A DNA stretch of 7,789 nucleotides from the NCBI GenBank assembly GCA_031281685.1, contig JAITFA010000198.1, forward strand, positions 1 to 7,789, in the 5' to 3' direction. The notes below the pieces were generated by a model. It was not told the DNA's origin and did no database searches. It was given only the letters and a program-made list of their open reading frames with translations. Shown one piece after another: positions 4,515 through 7,789 of this stretch. This stretch comes from Treponema sp. Its GTDB lineage: Bacteria > Spirochaetota > Spirochaetia > Treponematales > Breznakiellaceae. The position numbers and the translations under genes were made by a program. Numbering within the stretch: the stretch's first letter is position 1; each line of letters starts with the position of its first letter.

Positions 4515-5321
4515 ATGAAACGATTGTTGTGTACGGCGCTTACCGCGCTGGTTCTAGTCGGGGCTGTGTCCGCGAGCGCGGCTCAGCAGAGGTCTAGCGG
4601 GCTTACCTTGACACCGGGGGTATTGAATATCGGCATGGAGATTGGCTATCCGCCGTTTGAGTACCTTGATACCGATGGCAAAACACCCATTGGCTTTGAC
4701 GTGCAGATGGCTAAAGCCCTCGCCGCCAAGCTCGGTCTCACTCTGAACTTAATTGACACCGCCTGGGACGGCATCTTCGCTGGCGTTGACACCAGCAGGT
4801 ACGATTGCATCATCTCAGCGGTTACGATTACCGAGGAGCGGCTGCAGCGCCATAACTTCACCAAACCCTACATAGGGAACGCGCAGGTTATGGTTCTGCG
4901 TAAGGACTCCGGGATCACAGCCCGTACCCCGCAAGAAACGTCCGGCTTGGGAGTCTCGTATCAGGCGGAAACCACCTCAGACATCTTTATGGCTAATCTC
5001 GCGGCTCAGGGCGTGAACTTCACCCCGTATGAGTATGACAAAGTGCTGAACTGTTTTGATGAACTGAAACTGGGGCGCGTTGACGTGATTATATGCGACA
5101 GTCTTGTGGCGTTTGACTATACCAGAGCCGAAGACTCCCCTTTCGAGGTTGTCTGGGAAGGAACGGCTGACGAGACCTTTGGCATCTGCCTCAAAAAGGG
5201 CAACGACGCGCTGACCGCCGCGCTGGACAAGGCGCTTGATGAACTCTTTGCCGACGGGACCATGCGGAATATCTCGATAGAGGTATTCGGCAGAGACATG
5301 GTAAGTAGCGTGCGAAACTAA
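4515..5321 (+). CDS. Polar amino-acid ABC transporter, periplasmic substrate-binding protein (SBP family 3)
   Basis: This protein captures an amino acid in the periplasm and delivers it to the permease encoded next. Residues 1-23 are a signal peptide with basic start MKR, hydrophobic core LVLVGAVSA, and probable cleavage near ASA-A or SAA-QQ. The only early cysteine (C6) is not in a lipobox, so a soluble rather than lipid-anchored protein is likely. The mature protein shows the family 3 pattern. The opening strand is NIGMEIGYPPFEYLD (38-52), followed by GKTPIGFDVQMAKALA (55-70) and the pocket segment SAVTITEERL (101-110), whose R109 normally binds the ligand carboxylate. F115-Y119 (FTKPY) and GRVDVIICDSLVA (187-199) follow, with D195 normally binding the amino group. 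At 268 residues it has the usual length. The ligand cannot be named from these motifs; glutamine, cystine or a basic amino acid are all possible. It is the first gene of a three-gene unit, nine bases ahead of the permease gene. Confidence 0.93.
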   Translation: MKRLLCTALTALVLVGAVSASAAQQRSSGLTLTPGVLNIGMEIGYPPFEYLDTDGKTPIGFDVQMAKALAAKLGLTLNLIDTAWDGIFAGVDTSRYDCIISAVTITEERLQRHNFTKPYIGNAQVMVLRKDSGITARTPQETSGLGVSYQAETTSDIFMANLAAQGVNFTPYEYDKVLNCFDELKLGRVDVIICDSLVAFDYTRAEDSPFEVVWEGTADETFGICLKKGNDALTAALDKALDELFADGTMRNISIEVFGRDMVSSVRN

Positions 5322-5330
5322 GGCGGATAT

Positions 5331-6008
5331 ATGGACAACCTACGGAAAATGCTCGCATGGATACCTCAGCTTCTTGATGGTTCACGGGTTACGATTTTCT
5401 TGACCGTGGCGGCGGTTTCCGCGGGGCTTGTTTTGAGCCTCTTTCTTGCCTTGGGTAAGATGTCAAAAAAGCGCGTCCTTAACCGTATCTGCAGCGCCTA
5501 TATCTTTTTCTTTCGGGGAACGCCCCTGCTTATGCAGCTCTACTTTATCTACTACGCGCTTCCCATGATATCCCCCATTTTCATCATCAGGACCGGGGAT
5601 CAGTTCTTTGACCGGTTTATACCCGCGTGGATCGCGTTTGGACTTAACTCCGCCGCGTACTGCGCGGAAATCATCCGCGCCGCGATTCAGTCCATCGACA
5701 AGGGGCAGTTTGAGGCGTCCCGCGCCTTGGGCATGTCCTACGCCCAGACCATGCGGCTGGTGATCATCCCCCAATCCATACGCCGCCTTATCCCGCCGGT
5801 GGGGAACGAATTCATCATGGTACTGAAAGACGCTTCCCTTGTTTCCATGATTGCTCTGGTAGACATCACCAAAGCCACGCGGAACATCGAGTCCTCCACG
5901 CGCTCGGCGCTGGTCTACATACCGGCAATGATCCTCTACCTTATCATTACAGCCGTGTTTTCCTTTATCTTCCATAAACTTGAGAAGCGATACTCTATCT
6001 ATGAGTAA
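5331..6008 (+). CDS. Polar amino-acid ABC transporter permease (HisM/GlnP family)
   Basis: This inner-membrane channel subunit probably works as a homodimer, since only one permease gene is present. Hydrophobic segments are visible at about residues 20-42, 53-80, 96-118, 158-178 and 194-214. The family hallmark [17 protein letters not shown] spans 59-75. The cytoplasmic EAA coupling loop, which docks on the ATPase, is at 128-156 ([20 protein letters not shown], then QSIRRLIPP), with its conserved glycine at 134. The length of 225 residues is typical. The start at 5331 has AAGG at 5320-5323 seven bases upstream, overlapping the stop codon of the preceding gene, which suggests translational coupling. 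The ATPase gene begins 11 bases after its stop. Confidence 0.93.
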
Positions 6009-6019
6009 CGGGGGCGTAT

Positions 6020-6778
6020 ATGTCTATGATTAAAACCGTCGGAGTCAGCAAGGCGTTTGGAACCGTACAGGTGCTTAAAGACGTTTCACTCGAAGTTCAG
6101 CAAAAAGAGGTGGTCTGTATTATCGGACCGTCGGGCGCGGGCAAGTCAACGTACCTGCGCTCGCTCAACCGCCTTGAGCGTATTGATGAAGGGAAGATAT
6201 ATATAGAAGACAACTTGCTGTTTGACTGTGTAAACGGGGTGAACCTCGTGAAGATGCCTCTGCGCGAGCGAAACCTGCGGCTTCTTGAGGTGGGTATGGT
6301 GTTTCAGCGCTTTAACCTGTTTCCCCATAAAACCGCGCTGGAGAACGTAGTGCTGGCGCCGATTCATGTGAAAAAAGTGCCGGTGCCAGAGGCGCGAGGA
6401 AAAGCGCTGTCGCTGCTGGAGCGCGTGGGACTTGCCGACAAGATCGACGCCTACCCCGCCCAGCTTTCAGGCGGTCAGCAGCAGCGGGTCGCCATTGCCC
6501 GCGCTCTGGCAATGGAGCCGCGCATCATGCTCTTTGACGAGCCGACTTCCGCCCTTGATCCAGAGCTGGTTGGCGAGGTGTTAAGCGTGATGAAAAGTCT
6601 TGCAAACGCCGGCATGACCATGCTCGTGGTAACGCACGAGATGAGCTTTGCCCGCGAAGTCGCGGACAAGGTGGTATTCATGTACCAAGGCTCGATTCTG
6701 GAAGCGGGGAAGCCAGAGGATATGTTCGCCAATCCCACGAATGAACGAACCCGTCAGTTCCTGCAAAGCGTGCTGTAG
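6020..6778 (+). CDS. Polar amino-acid ABC transporter ATP-binding protein (GlnQ/HisP family)
   Basis: This cytoplasmic ATPase subunit powers import by the binding protein and permease encoded upstream. All nucleotide-binding motifs are intact. They are the Walker [10 protein letters not shown] (36-44), Q-loop glutamine Q96 in [10 protein letters not shown], signature LSGGQQQR (149-156), Walker B IMLFDEP (169-175, catalytic E174), D-loop SALD (177-180) and H-loop H206 in VVTHEM. The length of 252 residues is normal. A G-run (6010-6014) lies five bases before the ATG at 6020. A second in-frame ATG at 6026 is possible and would remove two residues. It is the last gene of the operon; downstream is a gene-free stretch with hairpins. 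I see no added C-terminal regulatory domain. Confidence 0.94.
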
Positions 6779-6923
6779 GCGCCAGTACCGCGGCGCGTAC
6801 TTTAAGTCAGCGGCTTTACAGCGCTGCTGACAACCCAAGCCATAGAAAACATCAGGAAACCGCGCCGCCATACTGAGCTAAAGCAATTCCCGGCGAGGCT
6901 TCAGGTCATTGCTCACCGGAATT
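6779..6923. other. Gene-free stretch between the ABC operon and the repeat array
   Basis: I see no credible gene here on either strand: overlapping open frames are shadows with no recognisable product. It holds two inverted repeats, listed separately, and ends exactly where the 21-bp array begins. Confidence 0.6.
6806..6831 (+). terminator. Hairpin after the ABC operon, possible terminator or transcript end
   Basis: GTCAGCGGC (6806-6814) pairs with GCGCTGCTGAC (using 6823-6831) in a 9-bp stem containing one G-T pair and an 8-base loop. It begins 28 bases after the ATPase stop, where operon termination is expected. No T-run follows, so it is not a classical intrinsic terminator. It could stabilise the 3' end of the mRNA. 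Confidence 0.3.
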
Positions 6924-6924
6924 G
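6884..6924. repeat. Inverted repeat abutting the left end of the 21-bp array
   Basis: CAATTCC (6884-6890) and GGAATTG (6918-6924) are perfect 7-bp arms. Allowing one bulged C, a further GG/CC and then GAG/CTC can pair across one mismatch, giving about 12 pairs and a 14-base loop. The right arm's last G is the first base of array unit 1. I find no matching arm at the right end of the array, so it does not behave like terminal repeats of a mobile element. Confidence 0.4.
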
Positions 6925-7350
6925 TGTCTGGTGCCTTTAGAGGTGTGTCTAGCATTTATAGAGATGTGTCTAGAACTTTTAGAGATGTGTCTAGAACTTT
7001 GAGAGGCGTGTCTAGCATTTTTAGAGATGTCTCTAGAACTTTGAGAGGCGTGTCTAAAACTTTGAGAGGCGTGTCTAGAACTTTGAGAGATTTCTCTAAA
7101 ACTTTTAGAGTCATGTCTAGCGTTTTGAGAGGTGGGTCTAGCGTTTATAGAGATGTGTCTAAAACTTTGAGAGATGTGTCTAAAACTTTTAGAAATGGGT
7201 ATAAAACTTGTAGAGGCGTGTCTAGCATTTTTAGAGTTGGGTTTAGCGCCTTTAGAGGTGTTTCTAAAACTTGTAGAGGTGGGTCTAGCGCCTTTAGAGA
7301 TATGTCTAAAACCTAGACGGATGTCTGGCGCTTGTAGAATGGTTTCTATA
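6924..7350. repeat. Tandem array of 21-bp quasi-palindromic repeats (18 full units plus degenerate copies)
   Basis: Eighteen contiguous units of exactly 21 bp run from 6924 to 7301 without spacers. A 19-bp unit with a 2-bp deletion (7302-7320), a diverged unit (7321-7341) and a partial one (to about 7350) follow. The core is a dyad around position 11 of the unit. The best copy, unit 13 (7176-7196), contains TCTAAAACTTTTAGA, which is perfectly self-complementary around the central C. Positions 4, 6, 13 and 16-18 of the unit are invariant. Inner bases vary and fall in two classes, AGC plus a non-ACT triplet or ARA plus ACT. Plus-strand frame 6909-7316 reads heptads such as VSKTLRD and VSRTLRG and starts with TTG. 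The minus strand (7394-6906) reads SFRHISQ-like heptads, also from TTG. Neither has a visible ribosome binding site. I annotate it as a DNA repeat, not a gene; function unknown. Confidence 0.9.
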
Positions 7351-7351
7351 G

Positions 7352-7789
7352 GAGAAATGCCCGTCAACGTATATCTGGCGCGGGGACTTGTCAACGAGTT
7401 ATTCTGCTGCCGGACATCCCCGCGTTACCTGCCTGATTGACGGCGAAGGTGGTTTTGAGCTGAAGGGTAAAACCCTCGGCATTGTGGGCGCTGGGGCTAT
7501 TGGTTTGCGGGTGGCGGAACTATTCCACGCCCTCGGAACCGCGATTCTGGCTTATGAGCCGCATCCAAAAGCCAAGGTTCCCGCCTATATCACCTTTGCC
7601 GCGCTTGACGAAGTACTCGCCCGGTCGGACATTGTTACCCTGCACTGTTTGCTGAACGACGGCACGCGGGGCCTGATTAACCGGGAGCGGATTGGCAGGA
7701 TGAAGCGCGGCGCTTACCTGATTAACGCGGCTCGCGGTCCGGTGGTGGATTCGGCTGCTCTGGCGGCTGCCCTGAACGACGGCTATCTT
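7352..7789 (+). pseudogene. D-2-hydroxyacid dehydrogenase, N-terminal half missing, cut by window end (probable pseudogene)
   Basis: The frame from about 7457 encodes the NAD-binding domain of a D-isomer-specific 2-hydroxyacid dehydrogenase (glycerate or phosphoglycerate dehydrogenase-like). ELKGKTLGIVGAGAIG (7457-7504) carries the Rossmann GxGxxG, followed by LDEVLARSDIVTLHC, then LINRERIGRMKRGAYLIN and AARGPVVD with the conserved substrate-binding Arg codon at 7733-7735. The catalytic Glu and His would lie beyond the window. Upstream, this frame is closed by TAG at 7349-7351, leaving about 35 codons before ELKGKT where a full protein has roughly 130-140. There is no ATG; the first plausible start is TTG at 7388. 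An AGGAG at 7350-7354 precedes an ATG at 7357 in a different frame, which ends at 7440. The substrate-binding domain has therefore been lost by deletion or rearrangement at the array border, or the assembly is wrong here. The dehydrogenase-domain call is firm; pseudogene status is inference. Confidence 0.75.

Follow-up and report, generated by a model that had tools for sequence, protein, structure and literature searches.

The Array and Its Locus

An array of 21-bp tandem repeats lies behind an ATP-binding cassette (ABC) transporter operon in a 7,789-bp stretch of DNA from Treponema sp. (GenBank assembly GCA_031281685.1), and an earlier note on this DNA had suggested that it might be bound cooperatively by a dimeric protein, as an alternative to a plain minisatellite. 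We refer to the whole 7,789-bp stretch as the window; it is contig 69 of the host genome (G000, a 56%-complete assembly of 1.49 Mb) and ends at 7789. The array proves to belong to a class of tandem repeats found throughout the genus, often dyad-bearing and with units mostly of 21 or 23 bp. This conclusion is well supported. We suggest, with less assurance, that the class is seeded by REP-associated tyrosine transposases (RAYTs), where REP stands for repetitive extragenic palindrome. The features of the locus are collected in Table 1.

Table 1. Features at the array locus, in window coordinates
Feature	Position	Strand	Basis
ABC transporter ATP-binding protein, directly upstream of the array	6020..6778	+	Pfam; collinear in L083-L086
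Frame open across the array, translated as a 7-residue repeat; unlikely to be a gene	6909..7316	+	139 b of the frame lie beyond the array
REP-like core GTGTCTGGTGCC at the left edge of the array, 1 mismatch to the RAYT-flanking core GTGTCTGGCRCC	6924..6935	+	
Array of 18 units of 21 bp, consensus TCTAGAACTTTTAGAGATGTG	6927..7304	.	Tandem Repeats Finder, register cut, column counts
Perfect dyad TCTAAAACTTTTAGA in unit 13	7179..7193	.	Sequence, per-column pairing
Degenerate array tail: one unit 2 bp short (7305-7323), then TCTGGCGCTTGTAGAATGG; flank from 7334 conserved in L083	7305..7350	.	
REP-like core ATGTCTGGCGCT at the right edge of the array, 2 mismatches	7321..7332	+	
D-isomer-specific 2-hydroxyacid dehydrogenase, 5'-truncated, NAD-binding part only, runs off the window	7388..7789	+	Pfam

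Tandem Repeats Finder places the array at 6936-7312 with a period of 21, 18.0 copies, 73% matches, no indels, and a score of 313, and cutting the sequence in register from 6927 recovers the 18 uninterrupted units that had been counted before. Of the extent of 6924-7350 originally given to the array, the stretch after 7304 is a degenerate tail. Self-matching reaches 0.70, 0.73, and 0.72 at lags of 21, 42, and 63, with the remaining lags from 5 to 62 at 0.15-0.46. As the earlier note had described, the outer TCT...AGA arms are kept and the inner bases drift: T1, T3, A13, G14, and A15 are present in 18 of 18 units and C2 in 16 of 18. Each unit has an imperfect dyad, the perfect palindrome reported at 7179-7193 is indeed there in unit 13, and the fraction of Watson-Crick cells about the dyad center is 0.74, compared with a median of 0.23 over all centers. 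Folded as single-stranded DNA, 6924-7350 gives z = -4.19 relative to 100 dinucleotide shuffles. Some units contain GTAG (e.g., 7210-7213), which, like CGTC, is a tag type of REP hairpin feet. In addition to the two REP-like cores at the array edges, a further one with 2 mismatches lies inside the array at 7281, and the window as a whole holds 6 matches to such cores where 1.08 are expected. The array has the attributes by which satellites are defined, with units arranged head to tail, a period of at least 10, and at least 4 copies. A CRISPR (clustered regularly interspaced short palindromic repeats) array was ruled out, as the units are contiguous and leave no unique spacers, and an Rfam scan of the window at gathering score returned 0 matches.

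A Genus-Wide Class with Two Preferred Lengths

Genome-wide figures come from 961 kb of contigs sampled from five genomes of the genus (G000-G004), taken by contig number and to at most the first 20 kb of each, with arrays of the class called by Tandem Repeats Finder at 2.8 copies or more; genus and family are used here as kinship labels from the genome search. This sample contains 137 arrays, 90 of which have periods of 20-24 bp (44 at 21, 8 at 22, 34 at 23, and 4 at 24). The remaining 47 include 14 at 42-48 bp and 8 at 62-70 bp, which may be multiples of the class period. Across the five genomes, the density of 20-24-bp arrays is 7.5-10.8 per 100 kb. When only arrays with at least 4 copies and a period of at least 10 are counted, the sampled contigs hold about 98 per Mb, including 77 at 20-24 bp. 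Arrays of the class occur in every degree of decay, and 34 of 138 contig ends fall inside 20-24-bp arrays or multiples of them, so the class may account for the broken assemblies in this group. Of the 44 period-21 arrays, 21 (e.g., G002 L192:6694-6946) lie in an open frame that has 300 b or more beyond the array, as do 3 of the 46 others; some period-21 arrays may have landed in genes, where they may survive because 21 keeps the frame.

Samples from other genera yielded 20-24-bp arrays in G028, G029, and G012 and none in G005, G013, G017, G025, G030, G031, and G036 (24-100 kb each, with 100 kb for each of the single-contig G030 and G031); G013 has three arrays of period 66 and G036 has one of period 42. 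Period-21 stretches were present at 4 of 4 genus loci and 3 of 71 others among the 75 loci compared. Autocorrelation turned up more period-21 arrays, made of other units, in contigs that had been chosen for having arrays. Among individual arrays, a 23-bp array of about 24 copies in G003 (L244:11795-12358) is flanked by two 79-base imperfect direct repeats, and at L086:9755-9950 an inverted repeat of the ATTCGCG...CGCGAAT type appears, by eye, to have been inserted at the right end of a 21-bp array.

These numbers bear on two of the earlier proposals. A 21-bp period had been taken to set every dyad on the same face of the helix, an argument that is spoiled by a 23-bp class of nearly the same frequency. 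Iterons and partition/centromere-like sites had also been mentioned as models. Plasmid iterons and parS-like centromere arrays are direct repeats of about 20 bp in regular phase, which the window array resembles, whereas the units here differ among arrays and occupy many loci. Such roles are not supported because about 9 arrays per 100 kb are far too many and the window has no replication or partition gene; the absence of such a gene had been remarked on before and stands after a Pfam scan of eight frames, none of which contains a replication or partition domain.

Unit Families and Their Turnover

The closest named relatives of the window are four Treponema sp. metagenome-assembled genomes (L083-L086) with about 90% DNA identity over shared genes. 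A conserved genomic position was one of the features by which the earlier note would have recognized a binding array, and at the orthologous site the unit sequence is not conserved. Unit calls at this locus were made with laxer Tandem Repeats Finder settings. The ATPase gene is followed directly by 5.6 copies of CTCTCCGCGCCGGCGGGGAAT in L084, whose contig ends soon after, and by 12.9 copies of ATTCCCTGAGTGGCTCATTGA in L085. L086 has lost genes at the locus and carries 4.0 copies of GCGCCATACCGGAGTACCGGT slightly further on, behind a dehydrogenase remnant. All three arrays have a period of 21, and their units are unrelated to the window's. In L083 the ATPase gene precedes a REP-type 21-bp repeat in 2.3 copies and then irregularly spaced, decayed TATAGAAGTTTTAGAA units (with 21 and 23 as the best lags), which are relatives of those in the window. 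At four other gene junctions compared among the five genomes, an array separates the methyltransferase and antiporter genes in L086 only, a short array separates the antiporter and solute-binding-protein genes in L083 only, and two further gene junctions have arrays in none.

Among 88 sampled units, pairs at distinct loci with at least 75% identity make up 15 of 315 equal-length pairs from the same genome and 0 of 1150 pairs between genomes, with 0 in shuffles. Looser cut-offs gave 17 same-genome and 5 between-genome pairs at 70% identity and 19 and 12 at 66%, where shuffles reach 1-5 in total. No partner at 75% identity was found for 58 of the 88 units. Alignment by expectation maximization detected a common motif for each length, weak at 21 bp and stronger at 23 bp; each exceeded 12 sets of shuffled units run with fewer restarts. 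Unit sequence is free while unit length is nearly fixed. The sharing of units at 75% identity within genomes only, together with the turnover at sites, therefore indicates that many arrays belong to families that disperse inside one genome and give way to others from species to species.

The family of the window array reaches further than this, as several searches showed. Within G000, the window array matches 7 stretches on 6 contigs, its own included. A pattern of two window units is found in 5 of 145 genomes of the taxonomic family, from three genera (G000, G001, G002, G029, and G070) with 0 matches for the reversed-pattern control, and G003 and G004, which belong to the genus, lack it at that stringency; an earlier, looser pattern gave one control match each in G047 and G053. 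Cross-genus spread of the family rests on this pattern search with its control. The DNA-search match of the window array to G028 was not used alone as proof because any two 21-bp arrays can be aligned over their full length as soon as about two-thirds of the bases in their units agree, and sets of shuffled units attain 0.66 identity 1-5 times, which makes this match weak. Neighboring cores in the scanned contigs (12-34 bp apart) are spaced at 21 in 71 of 72 pairs. A weight matrix built from the 18 units detects fewer single cores than in shuffled sequence in all five genus samples (12 versus 18 in G000), and in the outsider G005 it detects 8 versus 4. The weight-matrix search that had been suggested for the core returned other arrays in the 21-bp phase and, in the genus samples, no excess of single sites.

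Dyads and Arm Conservation

The mean best-dyad score of the 90 consensus units is 4.65; random genomic 20-24-mers average 3.49 (standard deviation (sd) 0.10) and shuffled units 3.59 (sd 0.09). This score replaced a first one, based on unconnected pairs over the whole unit, that was less sensitive. In arrays with a good dyad, mean divergence is 0.063 at the arms and 0.148 elsewhere, and the arms are less diverged than the rest in 27 of 33 such arrays (z = 3.44 on rotation of the arm mask). The same holds for 45 of 59 arrays when all usable ones are included (z = 3.14). An initial arm test on 23 arrays (Wilcoxon p = 0.0002) was redone with this rotation control, and nine additional arrays, from contigs most of which had been selected for containing arrays, showed a weak effect (6 of 9, z = 0.76).

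Structure maintained by compensatory change was rejected on paired-cell counts: none was found in 23 arrays, which have 1225 paired cells against 1225.9 expected under column independence. The window array has 93 paired cells of 126, where 89.7 (sd 1.7) are expected and 5.7% of shuffles reach this number. Conserved arms in the absence of compensation therefore point to arms that are read as sequence, array by array, or to homogenization, rather than to RNA structure.

RAYTs and REPs beside the Arrays

Matches to the IS200-like Y1 transposase family (Y1_Tnp) number 11 in G000 and 6, 10, 9, and 6 in the other four genus genomes. Elsewhere there are 9 in G012, 97 in G029, 28 in G025, and 0 in G028; each of the remaining six sampled relatives that have no arrays has 0-1. 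The NCBIfam cut-off for REP_Tyr_transpos is exceeded by all 5 proteins tested, of which four are from the genus, and the one at L282 (G000 contig 119) scores 103.8 bits against a cut-off of 80. In G029, a 2.2 Mb genome of another genus, many of the 97 RAYT-domain matches are near contig ends. As described in PMC6006769, each REP type generally appears to have one full-length tnpA-REP gene. The flanks of the RAYT genes, mainly on the 5' side, bear REP cores of the GTGTCTGRCAC type. Their frequency is 29 per 100 kb in the genus (279 versus 50 block-shuffled) and 0-5 per 100 kb in four relatives. Of 69 intergenic segments that hold a 20-24-bp array, 22% contain such a core, versus 11% of 295 segments without any array.

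To relate arrays to the transposase genes themselves, 14 of the 42 genus matches were examined, consisting of 13 higher-scoring ones and one in the sample; the RAYT at L073 was left out of the count because it had been fetched for its array. An array of 20-24 bp is located within 300 bp of 7 of 14 RAYTs versus 40 of 246 open reading frames (ORFs) of 400-800 bp (p = 0.005). On the 3' side, the numbers are 6 of 14 versus 17 of 246 (p = 0.0005), with the caveat that this side was noticed first and then tested. Widening the distance to 600 bp gives 7 of 14 RAYTs (6 on the 3' side) and 51 of 246 ORFs (24 on the 3' side). At L282, the 3'-side array is of the window type and is flanked on each side by an 80-base copy of the RAYT 3' end with its REP, the two copies being 90% identical. 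At L294 an array lies between REP copies and at L309 between 24-base copies, and five other RAYT-adjacent arrays and the window's own array have no flanking direct repeats beyond score 12. Over 63 array regions, 7 are bracketed by direct repeats scoring at least 14, versus 0.8% of mismatched flanks, and some of these repeats are REP cores. Two 23-bp arrays from different genera (G012 L305:2100-2217 and G004 L265:13103-13220) have CGCAGGGTGCTGCG in common, and the array in G012 directly follows a RAYT gene.

The window repeat has much of what is expected of REPs and of bacterial interspersed mosaic elements (BIMEs): it is a short imperfect palindrome, it is intergenic, it has many copies, and a RAYT gene is present in the genome. 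The window-type repeat was not found in inverted orientation on both sides of a RAYT. It is on one side only at G000 contigs 119 and 79, the only two RAYT loci seen with window-type arrays, and neither has inverted repeats of at least 14 bp. We do not file the array as a REP because of this failure to flank a RAYT on both sides. A REP-derived origin of all 20-24-bp units was rejected as well, since a resemblance to REPs is limited to the units at the edges of the window array and a few others.

Origin of the Arrays

The observations to be explained are a class with two preferred lengths, multilocus families specific to a genome, turnover, dyad enrichment, slower divergence of the arms, and an excess of arrays beside RAYTs. 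We give a probability of roughly 0.4 to the explanation that the window array is a satellite of this class that RAYTs, working on hairpins in single-stranded DNA, brought to new sites and that later grew in head-to-tail fashion. RAYTs are HUH nucleases that cleave single strands at hairpins and join them again; such an enzyme would recognize the unit dyad in single-stranded DNA and move a unit or a short array to another intergenic site, and it is this propagation step that RAYTs probably perform. Slippage or unequal recombination would then lengthen and homogenize the array. The two-turn unit length would correspond to the hairpin plus the spacing needed by the enzyme. On this view no dedicated regulator would use the array as a platform for cooperative binding, and any effects on neighboring genes would be side effects. 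Several results weigh against this explanation. Most array units are not the RAYT-flanking REP, the association of RAYTs with arrays by genus has p = 0.09, and neither G028 (arrays and 0 Y1 matches) nor G025 (28 matches and no arrays sampled) fits the link.

Known systems offer partial precedents. The REP/BIME and RAYT (TnpA-REP) systems, as described in PMC2817692 and PMC8266576, share with the arrays short dyads, many intergenic copies, species specificity, turnover, and genomes that contain RAYTs and REP cores. PMC2817692 reports four cases in which the 3' end of a rayt gene and its downstream REP became part of a BIME, which the arrangement at L282 resembles. In contrast to REPs and BIMEs, which alternate in orientation in these accounts, the arrays run head to tail at 21 or 23 bp, and each genome has many unit families, most of them different from the RAYT-flanking REP. 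Tandem REP clusters, such as those of Thauera and the Pseudomonas GTAG families, show that REPs can be tandemly reiterated (PMC3733652, in part); those clusters include flanking DNA of variable length, and a period quantized at 21/23 bp is not mentioned in the available text. Prokaryotic satellites (PMC6749651, in part) are likewise noncoding tandem repeats, some of them dispersed as species-specific families. They differ in lacking the preferred 21/23-bp length and the dyads in the text available and in density, which is at most 23.0 per Mb in bacteria and 89 in Methanosarcina (Table 1 of that paper) compared with about 98 here; the published figures were obtained by another method and on complete genomes. 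The mechanism would then be like that of REPs and BIMEs in amplification and the product satellite-like in appearance.

The main rival to a RAYT origin is plain slippage, a possibility that we rate as somewhat less likely. Here the arrays would be ordinary minisatellites that need no dedicated enzyme, since slippage and unequal recombination in place would make them, and hairpins would stall replication and duplicate about two turns, leaving unit length and dyads as by-products. Turnover at orthologous sites, diversity from array to array, the full range of decay, and the lack of compensatory changes all agree with this rival, and satellites are known in some prokaryotes (PMC6749651, in part). 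It has more difficulty with peaks at 21 and 23 when 22 is rare, with one unit at several loci of a genome, and with conserved arms. A single-copy progenitor was also not evident by eye in array-free relatives at the two junctions compared. The earlier note's fallback of simply a neutral minisatellite falls short because unit length is quantized and the arms are conserved.

That a dimeric nucleoid protein or regulator binds cooperatively to phased dyads is rather improbable. The dyad with its fixed outer arms, arm conservation within arrays of the class, and the retention of core and 21-bp phase by the window family in three genera argue for it. Yet relatives carry unrelated units at or beside the same spot, single sites outside arrays are not in excess in the five genus samples, and the many arrays have many different units, nearly as often at 23 bp. 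The earlier reading is therefore partly supported: the array, the dyad, the 21-bp phase, and the arm conservation hold, and binding by one protein to one sequence is not supported. Transcribed hairpin strings that act behind genes as transcript-end or mRNA-stability elements are very unlikely. The window array does follow an operon and the fold given above, computed with DNA parameters, is more stable than in shuffles, but a terminator-like site was looked for in 6700-7500 and none was found, compensatory changes are missing, and the 47 arrays with genes called on both sides are divided into 13 divergent, 10 convergent, and 12 + 12 codirectional cases. A heptad-repeat protein encoded by the 135-residue open frame is hardly credible despite a period that is a multiple of three and the period-21 arrays that may sit in genes, because the opposite-strand frame (6906-7394) is open too, the frame has no Pfam match and little sequence of its own outside the array, and 42 of the 90 class arrays have periods not divisible by three.

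A bolder version of the RAYT explanation, which we think unlikely as it stands, is a satellite-making machine with a two-turn ruler. A RAYT-type transposase or a partner would turn varied hairpins into 21/23-bp arrays, write them into intergenic sites, and rewrite them in each species, at a density like that of the densest prokaryotes surveyed. A genus with near-fixed unit length and free unit sequence separates sequence content from what such a machine would measure. Few satellites are present in most bacteria surveyed, according to PMC6749651, and how RAYTs spread REPs remains to be elucidated, as stated in PMC8266576. Our literature search returned no reports on 21-bp or termite-gut Treponema tandem repeats, helical-turn minisatellites, or Treponema together with REP-associated tyrosine transposase, and the main text of a Breznakiellaceae paper (PMC13067680) has none of the six terms looked for.

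Neighboring Genes

The ATPase gene in front of the array is the last of a solute-binding protein/permease/ATPase set at 4515-6778. The antiporter of the locus has 49% identity to that of Breznakiella homolactica; L083-L086 and this species are presumably from termite guts, judging from isolate naming. In L083 and L085, the dehydrogenase gene is longer and is preceded by an FAD-oxidoreductase-like frame. This FAD-oxidoreductase-like gene and the N-terminal part of the dehydrogenase are missing from the window (7369-7789), where 7369-7450 corresponds to about 1.85 kb of L083, and L086 has a further loss at this site that left the dehydrogenase remnant behind.
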